This document shows positions 15,942 through 22,989 of a stretch of DNA of 27,158 bases, piece after piece. The stretch comes from a virus. The stretch spans positions 1 to 27,158 of the IMG/VR virus record IMGVR_UViG_3300042484_000302. The stretch is one strand, 5' to 3'. Position 1 is the first letter of the stretch. The number at the start of each line of letters is the position of its first letter. A program made the position numbers and the translations under genes. The notes beneath the pieces are model-generated. The model had not been told where the DNA came from and searched no databases. It saw only the letters and a list, made by a program, of their open reading frames with translations.

Positions 15942-16207
15942 GCGCACCAATCAACAACGGAGGACCGGCGTTTCCAACTGCTGCAACCGCGACAACGCAT
16001 GGATTCTACCAAGACGGTCAACCTTGCATGACCCATTACGGTTCGAGATCTGGCATCACTGTCAGAGACTACTTCGCGGCAAAGGCGTTGCAGGGATTTA
16101 TTTCGGACACGAGCATTCCTGCCAGCATCAAGGTGGATGCAACATTGCTTTCCAGATCTGCCTTTCAGGTAGCCGACGCGATGCTCAAAGCGAGGGGGGC
16201 GAAATGA
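15938..16207 (+). CDS. Conserved phage protein of unknown function (89 aa)
   Basis: ATG 15938 overlaps the preceding stop. The sequence runs N-N-G-G-P-A-F-P, a Thr/Ala-rich loop, D-G-Q-P-C-M-T, then G-S-R-S-G-I-T-V-R-D-Y-F-A-A-K-A-L-Q and a helical end Q-V-A-D-A-M-L-K-A-R. The combination G-G-P-A-F-P, G-x-(S/T)-x-R-D-Y-F-A-A-K-A-L-Q and A-D-A-M-L-x-A-R is common in small proteins of tailed phages, with unknown function. Its final codons (AGGGGGGCGAAATGA) again carry a purine-rich start signal for the next gene. Confidence 0.78.
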   Translation: MSAPINNGGPAFPTAATATTHGFYQDGQPCMTHYGSRSGITVRDYFAAKALQGFISDTSIPASIKVDATLLSRSAFQVADAMLKARGAK

Positions 16208-16590
16208 TTGATACACCGAGGACGGAAGAGTTTGATGGAGAATACAGTGAATGGTCGCCAGCCAAGCCTAAAAACTGGCCAGCATTCGCCCGCCAACTCG
16301 AACGCGAACTCAACGCGGCCAACGAGCGCATCCATCTACTCATCGCAGAGCGCGACACGGCGCGACGACAGGCTGATCAGACTTACAAGCTCCGTAAGGA
16401 GTTTGCCGAACTGCTAGGAACCGATGATGTCGAGCGGGGAGTGGCTGTGGTGCGCGAGATGAAAGAGCGCATCTCAAAGCTGAACGACTACGTTGCCGCG
16501 CTTGAAACAGCAGGTGACTTGATGGCTAACGAACTCAGCTATGGATATGACGTTGATATGTGGAACAAAGCCAAGGAGGCCAAGCCGTGA
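16204..16590 (+). CDS. Coiled-coil protein of the small-protein array (128 aa)
   Basis: ATG 16204 overlaps the previous stop. It opens with M-I-D-T-P-R-T and F-A-R-Q-L-E-R-E-L-N-A-A-N-E-R-I, a long heptad-like helix. A second helix R-I-S-K-L-N-D-Y-V-A-A-L-E-T-A-G-D-L-M follows, and the end is D-M-W-N-K-A-K-E-A-K-P. The L-E-x-A-G-D-x-M and W-N-K-A-K-E-x-K-P elements recur in several neighbouring proteins, and L-E-R-E-L-N-A-A-N recurs in the protein at 18672. No enzymatic motif is visible. Probably a scaffold-like or interaction protein; the true role is unknown. Its last codons contain AAGGAGG (16573-16579) for the next gene. Confidence 0.75.
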   Translation: MIDTPRTEEFDGEYSEWSPAKPKNWPAFARQLERELNAANERIHLLIAERDTARRQADQTYKLRKEFAELLGTDDVERGVAVVREMKERISKLNDYVAALETAGDLMANELSYGYDVDMWNKAKEAKP

Positions 16591-16769
16591 GCTTAGAAAT
16601 GACAGTAAAAATTCAGTGGCAGAAGGAACAGATTTCATTGCTAAAGCAGCACATCCGTCGGCTGGAGGAGGCGGGAGATAAGATGGAGGCATGGCTGCGC
16701 GATGAGCGGTTGGATGCAGTGCAGCACACTGTTTCAAAATGGAACAAAGCCAAGGAGTACAAACCGTGA
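16587..16769 (+). CDS. Coiled-coil protein of the small-protein array (60 aa)
   Basis: GTG 16587 overlaps the previous TGA, eight bitwise bases after AAGGAGG at 16573-16579 (7-base spacing). The product is almost a pure amphipathic helix: W-Q-K-E-Q-I-S-L-L-K-Q-H-I-R-R-L-E-E-A-G-D-K-M-style sequence across residues 11-33, a short polar gap, then V-S-K-W-N-K-A-K-E-Y-K-P. It is the shortest clear member of the family and lacks the N-terminal extension of the gene before. Eighteen bases covering W-N-K-A-K-E (16740-16757) are identical to 16561-16578 in the preceding gene, pointing to duplication or recombination. Confidence 0.72.
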   Translation: MSLEMTVKIQWQKEQISLLKQHIRRLEEAGDKMEAWLRDERLDAVQHTVSKWNKAKEYKP

Positions 16770-16963
16770 GCATCACAATCAAATCGTGGATCGTGCCAGC
16801 ACTCATCACCGTAATCCTGCTGTGCATCATGTTCAGGCCATACCGTTCCAGCGGGCAGTATGACTTTGGACAGATCTTCCGGCTGTTTTGGCTGATACCG
16901 ATCGGAGCCGTTTGGATGGTTTACATGGGTGTACTTCTAATCATCAAGGAGGCCAAGCCGTGA
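16766..16963 (+). CDS. Small two-helix membrane protein in the array (65 aa)
   Basis: GTG 16766 overlaps the previous TGA and follows AAGGAG at 16752-16757. There are two hydrophobic stretches: W-I-V-P-A-L-I-T-V-I-L-L-C-I-M-F near the N-terminus, and L-F-W-L-I-P-I-G-A-V-W-M-V-Y-M-G plus V-L-L-I-I near the C-terminus. A polar loop R-P-Y-R-S-S-G-Q-Y-D separates them. It ends K-E-A-K-P, coded by AAGGAGGCCAAGCCG. It is likely an inner-membrane protein and could anchor the coiled-coil neighbours or act in lysis. Confidence 0.7.
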   Translation: MSITIKSWIVPALITVILLCIMFRPYRSSGQYDFGQIFRLFWLIPIGAVWMVYMGVLLIIKEAKP

Positions 16964-17166
16964 GAACCTCAACCGAAACACTAATCGCAGCCATGCGGAT
17001 ATTGTCTCAGGATATTCAATCCGAGGACGGCGTGGCCAACGCAGCAGTCGCTGAAGCAGCGGAGCGACTAGCGGAGCAGCACATGCGCATCACCCAACTA
17101 GAGCGAGAGAACGACGCTCTCCGCGCCGATCTGCTGCTGTGGGAGAATGGAGGGCCGTTGCCATGA
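16960..17166 (+). CDS. Coiled-coil protein of the small-protein array (68 aa)
   Basis: GTG 16960 overlaps the previous TGA and follows AAGGAGG at 16946-16952. It has a helical start T-E-T-L-I-A-A-M-R-I-L-S-Q-D-I, an Ala/Glu-rich centre, then a strong heptad stretch E-R-L-A-E-Q-H-M-R-I-T-Q-L-E-R-E-N-D-A-L-style helix over residues 37-55. The end is E-N-G-G-P-L-P and lacks the W-x-K-A-K tail of the relatives, so it is a looser member. Its last codons contain GGAGG for the gene at 17163. Confidence 0.68.
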   Translation: MRTSTETLIAAMRILSQDIQSEDGVANAAVAEAAERLAEQHMRITQLERENDALRADLLLWENGGPLP

Positions 17167-17396
17167 GCCAAATCAACGACGCATTTGGGAAACCGATGTA
17201 TGAGGCTGATCCGACCAACGCAAGATACAACAGCCTACAGCTCCAATGCTACGAGCAGCGTAAGGAGATTAATAGGTTGATGGATCGCATCAATCGATTG
17301 GCGCAGGCTGGTGACTGCTTATTGAGTCATCGCAACAGCACCGATTATCACGAAAAAGTTAGAGAGTGGGACAAAGCGAAGAAGGACAAACCATGA
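17163..17396 (+). CDS. Coiled-coil protein of the small-protein array (77 aa)
   Basis: ATG 17163 overlaps the previous TGA. A polar N-terminus (N-D-A-F-G-K-P-M-Y-E-A-D-P-T-N) precedes a helix R-K-E-I-N-R-L-M-D-R-I-N-R-L, then A-Q-A-G-D-C-L and the tail R-E-W-D-K-A-K-K-D-K-P. The R-L-x-x-A-G-D-x-L and W-D-K-A-K-x-x-K-P elements align with the proteins at 16204 and 16587 without gaps in the helix. It is soluble with no known activity. The codons for the tail (AAGAAGGACAAACC) provide the purine-rich start signal of the next gene. Confidence 0.72.
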   Translation: MSQINDAFGKPMYEADPTNARYNSLQLQCYEQRKEINRLMDRINRLAQAGDCLLSHRNSTDYHEKVREWDKAKKDKP

Positions 17397-17755
17397 CAGA
17401 CCTAGAAATAAACGCAGCAATTGCAGCCCATGTAGGATGGAAATCTCGCACCGTAATAGTGCATCATTCTGTTGGGTATCAATGGGACGAATCGTTGACT
17501 GTATGGACCAATCCAGCAGGTCATGACGATGTGCTCCCATCCTACACTACCGACCTCAACGCAATGCACCAAGTAGAGATGGTCCTAGATTCAACAAATG
17601 GAGGTACGGGAAATCCTAATTGCCTTCGATACAGGTATGCTTGCGAGATTTACCGATTGGCTTCGAACGAAATTCAACCTTTCCGATCCACTGCTCGCCA
17701 ACGCGCTGAGGCATTTTTGTGGACAGTTGACAAATGGAGGGAGGCAAAACCGTGA
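17393..17755 (+). CDS. Phage ABA-sandwich-like protein (120 aa)
   Basis: ATG 17393 overlaps the previous TGA. It starts with a helix T-D-L-E-I-N-A-A-I-A-A-H-V-G-W, then strands and loops, and the phrase L-P-S-Y-T-T-D-L-N-A-M-H-Q-V-E-M-V-L. This phrase (P-x-Y-(S/T)-x-D-L-x-A-x-x) is typical of the small alpha-beta-alpha sandwich domain shared by many accessory phage proteins (Phage_ABA_S-like). The C-terminal helix is A-R-Q-R-A-E-A-F-L-W-T-V. It ends D-K-W-R-E-A-K-P, like the coiled-coil neighbours. Family assignment is tentative and function unknown. Confidence 0.72.
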   Translation: MTDLEINAAIAAHVGWKSRTVIVHHSVGYQWDESLTVWTNPAGHDDVLPSYTTDLNAMHQVEMVLDSTNGGTGNPNCLRYRYACEIYRLASNEIQPFRSTARQRAEAFLWTVDKWREAKP

Positions 17756-17937
17756 TCAGTTTTTTGAAACAGTACCTGTATTGGATAGTCGAATCAGTAC
17801 TTTTCTTCTTGGGCATTCTTTTTGGAGCTTACTTTGGTGAATCTGGAATGAAAGAAGAAGCCGTGAGAAAGGACCACGCTGAGTGGGTGGTCGATTGCGC
17901 GGGTAAAAATCAGTTCAAATGGAAGGAGTGCAAATGA
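17752..17937 (+). CDS. Membrane-anchored H-A-E-W motif protein, copy 1 (61 aa)
   Basis: GTG 17752 overlaps the previous TGA behind GGAGGGAGG. One N-terminal membrane helix (Y-W-I-V-E-S-V-L-F-F-L-G-I-L-F-G-A-Y-F) is followed by a soluble tail with E-E-A-V-R-K-D-H-A-E-W-V-V-D and Q-F-K-W-K-E-C-K. The gene at 18487 has the same plan: membrane helix, then E-A-V-x-x-x-H-A-E-W-V-x-D, then Q-F-K-W-K-E-x-K. The H-A-E-W-x-x-D...F-x-W-K-E pattern recurs in small phage membrane proteins whose function I do not know. The codons for W-K-E carry AAGGAG for the next gene. Confidence 0.72.
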   Translation: MISFLKQYLYWIVESVLFFLGILFGAYFGESGMKEEAVRKDHAEWVVDCAGKNQFKWKECK

Positions 17938-18182
17938 GCGACTACACAATACCAACGTCGAATACGATGACTACAATCGACCCACAGGCCACAAAGATCC
18001 GCGAGCTTCAATCCGATGTGAACGAGCTGAAGGAGCTGGTCGAGTACCTGCAAGATCGGATCAAACTACTCAAGAGTACTGGTGACGAGCTGCTTGAGTG
18101 GCTGAAGGACGGTACCATTTCCGACTCAAACTATCGGTTGCTGGCCAATGCATGGCAGCGAGCAAAGGAGAACAAGCGATGA
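17934..18182 (+). CDS. Coiled-coil protein of the small-protein array (82 aa)
   Basis: ATG 17934 overlaps the previous TGA after AAGGAG. Beyond a Ser/Thr-rich start (S-D-Y-T-I-P-T-S-N-T-M-T-T) comes a long helix with clean heptads, from K-I-R-E-L-Q-S-D-V-N-E-L-K-E-L-V to Q-D-R-I-K-L-L-K-S-T-G-D-E-L-L-E-W-L. It ends N-A-W-Q-R-A-K-E-N-K-R. The T-G-D-E-L plus W-Q-R-A-K-E-x-K tail aligns with the family at 16204, 16587 and 17163. The preceding membrane gene is its likely partner, because the same gene order recurs at 18487-18896. Confidence 0.74.
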   Translation: MSDYTIPTSNTMTTIDPQATKIRELQSDVNELKELVEYLQDRIKLLKSTGDELLEWLKDGTISDSNYRLLANAWQRAKENKR

Positions 18183-18463
18183 ACCCCGAATACGAAGCGC
18201 ACGCACGCTTGTGCAAATCCATCGGAGCAATGGCGAAGGAGAACGAAGATCTTAAGCAGCACGTCACCGAACTTGAAAACCGTCTCCGCGCTCTGTGGGA
18301 CAAGTACGATGCAGAACTGAAGCACTGCGTGCAGATGATTGGCAGGTTGGAAAACGCGGGAAATGAAATGTACAAGTTTATCAATCCTCCTTCGCCGTGT
18401 ATGAGGACGACCAGAATGGATAACTTATTGCAGGGTTGGGATGACGCAAAAGGTCAACATTAA
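18179..18463 (+). CDS. Coiled-coil protein of the small-protein array (94 aa)
   Basis: ATG 18179 overlaps the previous TGA. The N-terminal half is M-N-P-E-Y-E-A-H-A-R-L-C-K-S-I-G, then helix K-E-N-E-D-L-K-Q-H-V-T-E-L-E-N-R-L-R-A-L. A second helix C-V-Q-M-I-G-R-L-E-N-A-G-N-E-M carries the family element L-E-x-A-G-x-x-M. The C-terminus is diverged (L-Q-G-W-D-D-A-K-G-Q-H) but keeps the W-x-x-A-K position. A 23-base gap follows with a separate AAGGAG for the next gene, so the overlap chain is broken here. Confidence 0.72.
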   Translation: MNPEYEAHARLCKSIGAMAKENEDLKQHVTELENRLRALWDKYDAELKHCVQMIGRLENAGNEMYKFINPPSPCMRTTRMDNLLQGWDDAKGQH

Positions 18464-18486
18464 ATAACATCTAAGGAGAAAAAGCT

Positions 18487-18675
18487 ATGAAAGACGAATC
18501 GTATTTAGTAATACCGTCTATACTCTTAATCGTGTTTCTATGTGTGCTAATAAACATGTTTGGATTCCATGGAGGTATTAATAAAATGCAACAAGAAGCA
18601 GTCGCTGCTGGCCATGCCGAGTGGGTGGCCGACACAAGCGGCAAACCGCAGTTCAAATGGAAGGAGTCGAAATGA
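18487..18675 (+). CDS. Membrane-anchored H-A-E-W motif protein, copy 2 (62 aa)
   Basis: ATG 18487 follows AAGGAG at 18473-18478 in a 23-base gap. It has a short polar start, a membrane helix Y-L-V-I-P-S-I-L-L-I-V-F-L-C-V-L-I, then Q-Q-E-A-V-A-A-G-H-A-E-W-V-A-D and P-Q-F-K-W-K-E-S-K. It matches copy 1 at 17752 in plan, and the 32 bases at 18649-18680 differ from 17911-17942 at two positions, spanning the stop/start junction. Different membrane helices on a shared tail suggest the tail is the functional part. Confidence 0.74.
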   Translation: MKDESYLVIPSILLIVFLCVLINMFGFHGGINKMQQEAVAAGHAEWVADTSGKPQFKWKESK

Positions 18676-18896
18676 GCGACACCCCAATATCAGACTCAAC
18701 ACCGCACAACGTGGCCGAGTTGGGCATGCTGTGCAGGAGGCTGGAGCGCGAACTCAACGCAGCAAACGCAATCATCCGTCAGCAGCAATTGTTAAATGAG
18801 GAGAATCTGCGGTTAAAGGAACTCATCAAGAGGCTGGAAATTGCAGCATGGAAAAACTACAACAATGCCCATAAAGAGAAGGAGGTTAAGCCGTGA
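18672..18896 (+). CDS. Coiled-coil protein of the small-protein array (74 aa)
   Basis: ATG 18672 overlaps the previous TGA after AAGGAG. It begins M-S-D-T-P-I-S-D-S-T-P-H-N, then C-R-R-L-E-R-E-L-N-A-A-N-A-I-I-R, sharing L-E-R-E-L-N-A-A-N with the protein at 16204. A second helix E-N-L-R-L-K-E-L-I-K-R-L-E-I-A-A-W follows and the end is K-E-K-E-V-K-P. The middle A-G-D element is replaced by A-A-W, and the tryptophan tail is shortened. It is the last coiled-coil gene of the array; AAGGAGG at 18879-18885 serves the next gene. Confidence 0.72.
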   Translation: MSDTPISDSTPHNVAELGMLCRRLERELNAANAIIRQQQLLNEENLRLKELIKRLEIAAWKNYNNAHKEKEVKP

Positions 18897-20776: not shown

Positions 20777-20812
20777 AAGTAAGCAGTCAGCGCAAGCCGT
20801 GAGAAGCGAGCG

Positions 20813-20926
20813 ATGACATTCAAAAATGAAGCCATGTTCAACCAATTTCTCCCCACTCTTTCTGTGTACGTCCCGTCGCTTCAGCGGGAGTTCTCACCAC
20901 AGACTGAGTGGGGTTTTCTGTCTTGA
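20813..20926 (+). CDS. Possible tiny ORF in the gap before the initiator gene (37 aa)
   Basis: An open frame from ATG 20813 to TGA 20924-20926 would code M-T-F-K-N-E-A-M-F-N-Q-F-L-P, then V-Y-V-P-S-L-Q-R-E-F-S-P and a final W-G-F-L-S. It ends four bases before the next ATG. Upstream purines (GAGAAGCGAG) could act as a weak ribosome-binding site. It overlaps a sizeable inverted repeat, so the RNA structure may be the real function and the frame accidental. Confidence 0.3.
   Translation: MTFKNEAMFNQFLPTLSVYVPSLQREFSPQTEWGFLS
20851..20917 (+). terminator. Inverted repeat followed by T run, possible terminator or RNA structure
   Basis: CCCCACTC at 20851-20858 pairs with GAGTGGGG at 20906-20913, which is followed directly by TTTTCTG. 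A small internal hairpin CCCG (20872-20875)/CGGG (20884-20887) sits in the long loop. The G/C stem with trailing T's resembles an intrinsic terminator, but the 47-base loop is long, so a structured leader for the initiator gene at 20930 is also possible. Confidence 0.45.
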
Positions 20927-20929
20927 AAC

Positions 20930-21697
20930 ATGATTGTAGAACTAGACTTCCTAGATCACTGGAAAACACGATTACTAAGCAGACTGTTAGACACTGAAAC
21001 CGCTCCATTGCACGTTATTCGGCTATGGGCGCACTGTCAGACCAGAAAGACAAACAGGTTTGCTGATTGGAATCCTGCCATCTTGTCGGCTGTATGCAGA
21101 TGGAACGGAGACGCTCAAGAGTTCTGGGACGCAATGCTCCAGACATTTTGCCGATCCGAAGACGGCTGTTTGATTGCCCATCAATGGGATGAGGTAAACG
21201 CTGGATTGATTTGCTCTTGGTCAAATGGAGCCAAAGGAGGGAGACCAAAGAAACCCACGGGTAACCCGCCGGTTAACCCAGAACCGATTCCGGTTATCCC
21301 AGACATAACCCGTGGGGTAACCTATAGAGAAGAGAAGATAGAGAAGATAGATTCTTCTTTGCCAACTCCAAGCGTTTCAGATCCCGAACTCGATTCGCTT
21401 CGCTCTCGAATAAACAAATGGTTTCGCAGACGAGAAGGAACCGATTGGCAACCCGCTGAACTCAAAGCTCTCAAGCTTGTGGTCAAGCTTAAGACCTCCG
21501 AGTCAGACCTTCAGCTTCTCGATGCTCGTTACGAGACTAAGAACAAGTATCGACGCAAAGACATTATGACTCTGCTTAACAATTGGAACACCGAGATTGA
21601 TCGCTGTAAGTCTGGTGACGATGACTCGCAACAAACTTTATCAATAGCCGGTCAACCGAAGACCATTCTCTCAGAAAACATTGCTGACTACTTATGA
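20930..21697 (+). CDS. Replication initiator/helicase-loader candidate
   Basis: 255 aa from ATG 20930. The N-terminal part (L-D-F-L-D-H-W-K-T-R-L-L, then L-H-V-I-R-L-W-A-H-C-Q-T, and D-E-V-N-A-G-L-I-C-S-W) looks like a helical DNA- or partner-binding domain. A Pro/Asn-rich linker follows the basic N-G-A-K-G-G-R-P-K-K. The C-terminal half (I-N-K-W-F-R-R-R-E-G-T-D-W, then I-M-T-L-L-N-N-W) is another small helical domain. This two-domain, flexible-linker build upstream of and overlapping a DnaB-type helicase gene fits phage O/DnaT-like initiators or loaders. The linker codons contain iteron-like repeats. Family not identified by motif. Confidence 0.68.
   Translation: MIVELDFLDHWKTRLLSRLLDTETAPLHVIRLWAHCQTRKTNRFADWNPAILSAVCRWNGDAQEFWDAMLQTFCRSEDGCLIAHQWDEVNAGLICSWSNGAKGGRPKKPTGNPPVNPEPIPVIPDITRGVTYREEKIEKIDSSLPTPSVSDPELDSLRSRINKWFRRREGTDWQPAELKALKLVVKLKTSESDLQLLDARYETKNKYRRKDIMTLLNNWNTEIDRCKSGDDDSQQTLSIAGQPKTILSENIADYL
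21254..21352 (+). other. Putative replication origin inside the initiator gene
   Basis: A block in the linker codons holds a 9-base inverted repeat CCCACGGGT (21254-21262) and ACCCGTGGG (21308-21316). Between and beside these are repeated GGTAACC-type units: GGGTAACCC (21260-21268), GGTTAACC (21271-21278), GGTTATCC (21292-21299) and GGGTAACC (21315-21322). Directly after it lies a purine-rich, A-rich tract with two tandem GAGAAGATA units (21332-21349). Lambda's origin has the same build: iterons plus an A/T-rich tract inside the O gene. Assignment is by analogy. Confidence 0.5.
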
Positions 21698-22989
21698 GCG
21701 ATCCCTTTTTTGCTGAAGACGACGAGTTTGGTCTGATTGGAGCGTGTATCGCTGGAGGCTCTGACATTTGCTTTGACGCATTCGCTGAAGTTCCAACAGC
21801 AGCAATTCAAAACGAACAACTGGCTTTAACTTACGAAACCATAAAAAGCCTCATCACTCAAAACAAGCGAGTGACATTGCCGGAGTTAATGAAGGAATGG
21901 AAACGAACCATTACAAGTTCAGCAGTACCATTTGAAGCTTGGAACCGCTGCGATGAACTTTGCCCATCACCTTCCGGTTACCCGATGTTCGCCAAGAGCG
22001 TTCTGGAAGCCCATCACCGTCGCCAGTTACGTTTTGCCGGAGACCGCTTGATTCGCGATTCCGCTGTGGTGACCCTAACCGTGGATCAAATCGTCGCTAA
22101 TGCCGAGCAGGGACTCAGCGTTGAGGCTTCCAAAGACGATCTTCAATCCAGCAAGTCCGTTGTCTCAAGATTTATCGACTCGACGCAAGAGCGGTTCAAT
22201 CGCAGGGGACAACTCAGCGGGATCAATACTGGCTTCTTTAGACTCAACCAAATGACTGATGGCTTGCAACTCGGAGAACTCGCTATTATAGCAGCACGAC
22301 CCTCGATTGGTAAGACGGCTATGGCGATTGCTATAGCCAAAGCAGCAACGATAGAAGACCAAGTTCCAACCTTATTCATATCGCTAGAGATGTCAGATGA
22401 AGCTATTATTAGAAGAATGGTTTCAACTGTTGGATCTATTCCAATGCAGGATATTAAGACCGGCGAGATGGATCAGGGAGGTCTTAAAGCTATGAGTACA
22501 GCATCAGCTAAGATCGCAGCCAGTCCATTACACTTCGCCTCTGGCTCCTCCGTGACAAACATATCGTCCATCACAGCAGTAATCCGCAGAGCAGTCCGCA
22601 AGTGGGGAGTTAGGTTGGTATTGATCGACTACATTCAGAAGATCCACGGGAGTAAGGGAGCCGAGAAGAAAACCTACGAGATAGGTGAAGTCAGCGGTAA
22701 GCTCAAGAGCATTGCCGTCGATACCAAGACTGCCATCGTAGCCTTAGCGCAACTCAACCGAGAGAACGAGAAAGATAAGGGACGCTCACCTCGTCTTTCG
22801 GACATAGGGGAGTCAGGACAGGTGGAGCGCGATGGGGATCTGGTGATGCTCCTGAACAGAGACCGCAATCAACCGCAGGGGGAAGCTATGGTCGCAATAG
22901 CCAAGCAGCGCGACGGAGAATGTGGAGCCGTAAAACTCTGGTATGATGGACGCTTCTGCCGGTTCTCTGAGTGCGGCATTGATACCTAA
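21694..22989 (+). CDS. dnaB: DnaB-type replicative DNA helicase
   Basis: 431 aa; ATG 21694 overlaps the previous TGA (ATGA). The N-terminal domain (D-E-F-G-L-I-G-A-C-I) fits the DnaB helical hairpin region that meets primase or loader. The RecA-like motor is at about 185-431. It has Walker A A-R-P-S-I-G-K-T-A (201-209), the S-L-E-M-S motif (230-234), Walker B L-V-L-I-D-Y (308-313) and sensor-like A-L-A-Q-L-N-R. It ends with D-I-G-E-S-G-Q-V-E-R-D-G-D-L-V (canonical DnaB L-R-E-S-G-x-I-E-x-D-A-D). Length is near the lower end of the family. It should unwind the fork as a hexamer and probably uses the upstream protein as loader. Confidence 0.95.
   Translation: MSDPFFAEDDEFGLIGACIAGGSDICFDAFAEVPTAAIQNEQLALTYETIKSLITQNKRVTLPELMKEWKRTITSSAVPFEAWNRCDELCPSPSGYPMFAKSVLEAHHRRQLRFAGDRLIRDSAVVTLTVDQIVANAEQGLSVEASKDDLQSSKSVVSRFIDSTQERFNRRGQLSGINTGFFRLNQMTDGLQLGELAIIAARPSIGKTAMAIAIAKAATIEDQVPTLFISLEMSDEAIIRRMVSTVGSIPMQDIKTGEMDQGGLKAMSTASAKIAASPLHFASGSSVTNISSITAVIRRAVRKWGVRLVLIDYIQKIHGSKGAEKKTYEIGEVSGKLKSIAVDTKTAIVALAQLNRENEKDKGRSPRLSDIGESGQVERDGDLVMLLNRDRNQPQGEAMVAIAKQRDGECGAVKLWYDGRFCRFSECGIDT

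Follow-up and report, generated by a model that had tools for sequence, protein, structure and literature searches.

A probable phage replication origin in the linker-encoding part of the initiator gene, apparently exchanged together with the initiator N-domain

The viral record IMGVR_UViG_3300042484_000302, which is classed as linear and possibly incomplete, was analysed over a stretch of 27,158 bases (hereafter the window). Its gene content includes tail genes, RecT and an exonuclease, RusA, a terminase and a replication module. Moreover, short ORFs that resemble and overlap one another follow in a row at positions 16024-18896 (+). Many of them have ...KAKEAKP-like ends and each next start lies just before the preceding stop, which gives the impression of small paralogous genes arranged in tandem. 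Neither a DNA similarity search nor tblastn uncovered a match between the replication initiator of the window and cultured phages. Bacterial relatives of the initiator are present in Pontiellaceae, in a Verrucomicrobia metagenome bin and in Pontiella sulfatireligans (loci L204-L206), and the host of the phage thus probably belongs to a Verrucomicrobia-type group. The following two genes of the replication module are adjacent to each other:

20930-21697, + strand: replication initiator gene encoding 255 aa, an ORF matching PHROG 9474 "replication initiation protein" (E = 2e-7)
21694-22989, + strand: gene for a DnaB-type replicative helicase (Pfam DnaB_C, E = 3e-69), directly downstream of the initiator gene

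The profile match bears out the DnaB-type helicase that a first-pass annotation of the DNA had placed right behind the initiator. The helicase gene holds the same position next to the initiators of all four N-domain classes described below, and in the relatives of the other classes a homologous helicase is nearly always encoded directly downstream of the initiator (62-72% median identity). Thus, as in the lambda-type layout, where a helicase or a helicase-loading gene is found at this place, the initiator shares its operon with a helicase gene. The PHROG 9474 match spans residues 4-94 of the initiator, and the relative encoded at locus L022 matches the same family with E = 8e-10. The AlphaFold2 model is confident at residues 11-90, has pLDDT values below 50 in the linker (residues 100-158) and contains helices at residues 157-227. 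A fold comparison with the PDB gave no significant match (best E = 0.12, with CRP-like winged-helix proteins near the top). In a viral library the best matches were a replisome organizer (E = 8e-4) and a primosomal protein, both with low TM-scores. These fold matches are weak, and the winged-helix call is therefore a lead only. With this reservation, the initiator consists of a confidently modelled, helical or winged-helix-like N-domain, a disordered linker and a helical C-domain for which the confidence of the model is low. When compared with the lambda O families PHROG 277, 2365, 345 and 678, the protein did not match any of them and only retrieved PHROG 9474 and a weak match to an unknown family, whereas lambda O itself matches PHROG 277 and others in the same kind of profile comparison. 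Relatives with another type of C-domain weakly match PHROG 678, but only with their C-terminal half (E = 1e-5 to 2e-4). By sequence, the initiator of the window is thus outside the lambda O protein family.

The segment 21254-21352 provides the codons of the disordered linker and contains three features:

21254-21322, + strand: iteron array consisting of GGTAACC (21260-21266), GGTTAACC (21271-21278), GGTTATCC (21292-21299), the degenerate ATAACCC (21305-21311) and GGTAACC (21316-21322)
21326-21352, + strand: purine-rich, strand-asymmetric tract with tandem GAGAAGATA at 21332-21340 and 21341-21349
21254-21316, no strand assigned: 9-nt inverted repeat with the arms CCCACGGGT (21254-21262) and ACCCGTGGG (21308-21316)

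The four or five GGTAACC-like units of the first-pass annotation correspond to four GGTTAACC-type units and a degenerate one, and the purine-rich tract with its tandem GAGAAGATA is indeed present 3' of the units. On both strands of the window, the consensus GGTWANCC has 10 matches (3.1 expected), a number that was reached in 0 of 100 shuffles, and 6 of the 10 matches fall within the 64 bp of the linker array. Codons 91-160 contain 18 pairs of repeated 7-mers, compared with about 4 in synonymous-codon shuffles that were done within the gene and preserve both the protein and the codon usage (p~0.003). The earlier suggestion that the DNA is more repetitive than a P-x-N-P linker requires is thus borne out. 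A gene-wide repeat scan located the peak of the initiator gene in the linker (p=0.005) and gave no signal for six other genes of the window and lambda P (p 0.21-0.99). As a positive control, the identical scan recovered the annotated origin iterons of lambda in gene O. Clusters of at least three cores in 80 bp were confined to the linker array when the window and six related genomes were scanned in full. Furthermore, GGTTAACCCA is present in one or two copies per genome in 16 of 17 relatives with genomes of 26-42 kb. The units of the window are read in differing codon phases and encode GNP, VNP, VIP and GVT.

In a first set, which was later extended, 80 viral loci were found to encode relatives of the initiator. 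Several of the IMG/VR loci cover one and the same contig in overlapping records, and distinct sequences were counted where stated. Class 0 comprises 55 distinct genes with the N-domain of the window, and three other N-domain classes are joined to the same C-domain group. The linkers of class 1 (MRIRTIKPEFF...) contain ACGCGT units every 11 bp, and those of class 2 (MRIRSIKPEFWES...) contain TTCGCGA-type units with the core TCGCGA every 10 bp. The linkers of class 3 have no clear iterons and carry tandem GACTCC instead. The copy number of GACTCC (GGAGTC on the other strand) varies in class 3, for instance at L190 and L196, AAACATATGTTT lies nearby and a different origin layout may apply. In class 0, the units of a single gene occupy between one and three codon phases, with more than one phase in 34 of 51 linkers, and are mostly spaced by 11-12 or 21-24 bp, that is about one or two helical turns. 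The spacings in classes 0, 1 and 2 therefore follow the helical pitch and are not codon multiples.

The analysis of synonymous substitutions in class 0 revealed an observed/expected ratio of 0.19 for codons 109-142 (window 21254-21355) versus 1.15 elsewhere in the gene, and none of 20,000 column permutations gave a value as low. The ratio is 0.15-0.4 in the iteron array and lowest in the purine tract (0.07-0.09). In the linkers of classes 1 and 2, it amounts to 0.25 and 0.27, respectively. An excess of repeats over synonymous-codon shuffles (p<=0.05) was observed in 50/51 linkers of class 0, 34/36 of class 1, 29/29 of class 2 and 7/7 of class 3. In class 2, motif counts alone beat every shuffle in only 7 of the 29 linkers, and the purine tract accounts for most of the repeat signal. 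The number of good units varies from about 2 to 8 across class 0, and so does the linker peptide (NPRVNP, NPEPIPVNP, THGLPTGYPQVNP and others). Relatives thus have conserved iterons and a varied protein linker, as the first-pass annotation had proposed to look for. As in lambda-type origins, repeated units that resemble initiator sites and are constrained as DNA lie in the coding region of the initiator. In the N-domain codons 40-48 of class-2 initiators (numbered as in the L079 gene), there is a second strong suppression of synonymous substitutions, with an observed/expected ratio of 0.02.

The linker could also be a low-complexity protein segment (P-x-N-P, REEKIEK) whose DNA repeats result from slippage or codon bias and have no function in cis. 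Its predicted disorder and the tandem copy-number changes of 12 bp that do occur, for instance in L021, would fit this explanation. However, we consider it very improbable given that the synonymous sites are frozen, that the repeats exceed those of synonymous-codon shuffles and that the same word is used in several frames to encode different peptides. Moreover, GGTTAACCCA is confined to the linker and the control genes are without signal.

The 9-nt inverted repeat is present where it had been annotated, but it is not conserved because both arms are found in only 9 of the 55 class-0 genes. It is probably incidental, and a function as a cruciform or hairpin was rejected on this ground. The conserved feature is the individual unit and not the long inverted repeat. 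The same numbers bear on an RNA-level element in the initiator mRNA, such as a hairpin or an attenuator. Folding of the window RNA is slightly more stable than that of shuffles (z=-3.1), owing to the inverted repeat. In contrast to the two arms, the iterons and the purine tract are kept in nearly all relatives, which makes an RNA element a highly doubtful explanation for the linker DNA.

A separate structured RNA was observed in the leader of the initiator gene (window 20780-20925, +). It is strongly structured (MFE z -4.1) and forms a stack of hairpins with two pseudoknots. The leader RNA is also present upstream of the initiators in L162, L079, L073, L097, L188 and other loci, and, according to a covariance model, initiators of each of the four N-domain classes are preceded by a single copy. 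In some cases, extra sequence or a small gene lies between the leader RNA and the initiator gene. Among 28 sequences, 90.7% of the pair cells are kept and 20 of 40 pairs have changed on both sides. One pseudoknot helix is kept to 100%, with half of the sequences doubly changed. A comparison with Rfam gave no match above threshold. The leader RNA may have a control function in the replication operon.

The comparison of the N-domain classes revealed that the initiator genes are mosaics, of which the following part is shared with a class-1 gene:

21380-21694, + strand: exchangeable C-domain, 314 nt with 98% identity to a class-1 gene; breakpoint at gene nt 452 (about window position 21381)

For each of the six pairs of N-domain classes, the best pair of genes shares a C-domain of about 300-360 nt with 93-99.7% identical DNA next to an unrelated N-domain and linker. 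The automatic clustering of the C-domains merged visibly different subtypes, and C-domain subtypes are therefore described only loosely. The breakpoints lie 3' of the iterons and the purine tract. Between classes 1 and 2, it is the purine tract that contains the breakpoint, again on the 3' side of the iterons. The linker, which differs completely between the N-domain classes, stays with the N-domain and never goes with the C-domain. Among genes with at least 55% N-domain identity, at least two copies of ACGCGT are present in 30/30 class-1 genes and at least two copies of TCGCGA in 46/60 class-2 genes. None of the class-1 and class-2 genes counted has two or more copies of the word of the other class. 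The linkage of iterons and N-domain is partly expected through adjacency alone. Two further facts carry more weight: the linker was never seen to accompany the C-domain, and the hexamer persists even between distantly related genes. The N-domain half and its putative recognition repeats appear to be swapped between related phages as one unit. Class-1 initiator genes have a second cluster of ACGCGT-type units in the N-domain codons besides that of the linker, as noticed at L075 and L076 (gene nt ~190-255; L076:2725-2790).

The C-domain swaps occur at about the position of the linker, which could mean that the linker DNA is kept as a recombination boundary for domain shuffling and is not an origin. 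A recombination site used by all classes would be expected to look alike in them, but the linkers differ between them, remain with the N-domain and have the breakpoints on their 3' side. We regard this as the least credible of the explanations. Based on synonymous constraint, frame use and breakpoints, the slippage-only, codon-bias, recombination-site and RNA-element readings were all rejected.

The 40 bp located 3' of the iterons (68% AT) belong to the least stable 0.5% of all stretches in the window, and a 30-bp stretch of the purine tract is the most purine-rich of the record. For comparison, the A+T-rich element of lambda is among the 0.2% least stable stretches of its fragment. Nearly all purines of the A+T-rich region of lambda are on one strand (PMC5043065). 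The purine tract of the window is a probable unwinding or strand-capture element, as its composition and predicted stability suggest. An easily melted, strand-asymmetric element next to the iterons is a feature of class 0 only, while classes 1 and 2 have the purine asymmetry alone. In the latter, the tract is neither A+T-rich nor unusually unstable, and its role in unwinding is therefore less clear. Thus, the purine asymmetry is the more general feature. The first-pass annotation had also proposed that the minimum of the cumulative GC skew might fall at the linker. It is located at about 12.7 kb in the window instead, with a weak amplitude, and in some genomes the maximum lies near the linker. 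GC skew is uninformative here and speaks neither for nor against an origin.

In summary, the linker repeats are real and conserved as DNA. Their cluster is the only one of the genome, their spacing follows the helix and they are passed on together with the N-domain. Judged by these sequence features, the linker segment is very probably a phage replication origin, composed of iterons and an unwinding element and nested in its own initiator gene. Alternatively, the array could be an initiator-bound control site involved in operator function, handcuffing or incompatibility, with replication starting elsewhere. Phased repeats that are conserved as DNA together with the N-domain would look alike in this case, and an operator for autoregulation leaves much the same footprint. 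Iteron plasmids often have separate control iterons. However, the window and six relatives have no second cluster of cores, and the array is adjoined by the easily melted, purine-asymmetric tract, which is constrained at least as strongly as the iterons and which an operator does not need. Thus, a mere control site is unlikely, though less so than the other alternatives. For the nested origin, we infer that the winged-helix-like N-domain would bind the GGTTAACC-type iterons, which are in phase with the helix. The complex assembled on them would then strain the adjoining purine-rich tract and capture one strand, and the C-domain would bring in the DnaB-type helicase, the product of the downstream gene. 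Binding, opening and loading, like the activity of the segment as an origin, are predictions from sequence.

An origin nested in an initiator gene is of an already known kind, as exemplified by lambda O and SPP1 gene 38. The designation as lambda-like, which the first-pass annotation had used, holds for the layout and the probable mechanism, in view of the synonymous freeze, the helicase gene next to the initiator and the lambda control, but not for membership in the lambda O family. In the lambda origin in gene O (also in the Stx phages P27 and 933W) and in the window, iterons in the middle of the gene are followed by an easily melted, purine-asymmetric tract. Moreover, both have a helicase-loading function in the next gene, and one scan detects both. 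In Stx phages, the iteron number is 6 versus 4, with the protein length compensating (PMC7466680), and a varying number of units is thus a shared trait. In contrast to the four 18-bp iterons of lambda, which are ~20-24 bp apart, the window contains palindrome-like cores of 7-8 bp at distances of ~11-12 or 21-24 bp. The next gene encodes a P-type loader in lambda and the DnaB-type helicase itself in the window. In the Bacillus phage SPP1, oriL in gene 38 consists of direct repeats and an A+T-rich element inside the gene of the origin-binding protein, and the DnaB-family helicase gp40 belongs to the gene set (PMC6316719). This layout, likened here by its published description, resembles that of the window, but SPP1 has a second origin (oriR) and the separate loader gp39, whereas the window has one cluster and no separate loader was identified in it. 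Iteron plasmids of the P1, RK2 and R6K type have helix-phased iterons beside an unwinding element (PMC5043065), as does the window. However, plasmid iterons are described as mostly direct repeats that are bound by monomers and linked to rep, while the cores of the window are palindrome-like and lie within the initiator coding region. In mycobacteriophage RepA systems, which are cited by their published description, the origin was narrowed down no further than to "within or immediately adjacent to repA", with no repeats found (PMC7157519). No report on such linker origins was found in open-access papers. What appears to be new is that the initiators are of a different family, that each class has iterons of its own which are spaced by one turn, that modules are explicitly exchanged and that the finding extends to cultured phages.

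The N-domain of classes 1 and 2 is that of the RIR-type "replication initiation" or "RepA-like" proteins (PHROG 16167, 2149 and 1408) of VvAW1, PFR2, the Mycobacterium phage Redi and the E. coli phage HK639, while the class-0 N-domain of the window is outside this family by sequence. The class-specific linker hexamer of classes 1 and 2 was also found in cultured phages. The initiator linkers of the Vibrio phages VvAW1 and 1.176 contain ACGCGT units. At least two copies of TCGCGA are present in all four actinobacteriophage genes examined, namely those of the Propionibacterium phage PFR2, Redi, Bantam and prophiGD05-3, which have 35-41% N-domain identity. At the same place of the linker, repeats of another kind (CTGATTCC type) are found in HK639, Louie, JBD44 and a Bordetella phage, and the Acinetobacter members of the RIR-type family likewise have other repeats. 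In the Pseudomonas phage vB_Pae_SG_WM_Sew_P27 (L209:1995-3077), the initiator linker contains HRCLKCG...IDHIVPLSKGG, which looks like an HNH-type motif and would fit the insertion of an HNH domain beside the origin region.

It is about an even call whether a more general statement can be made. Many unrelated-looking phage initiators with a wHTH N-domain, a disordered linker and an exchangeable C-domain would then have a complete origin cassette within their linkers, consisting of an N-domain-specific, helix-phased iteron word and a short tandem purine-strand repeat. The cassette and its reader domain would be exchanged together, and what the cassettes have in common would not be an A+T-rich unwinding element but the conserved purine-strand repeat. 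If this is true, the origins of unmapped cultured phages of the Redi, PFR2, VvAW1 and HK639 types would be readable from the initiator gene. Most phage origins are unmapped, and scanning initiator genes for synonymous constraint and repeats gives testable origin predictions for uncultivated and cultured phages. Moreover, the exchange of modules illustrates a way in which a replicon could alter its origin specificity while the fit between initiator and origin remains intact, with the site and its reader combined in one transferable block.
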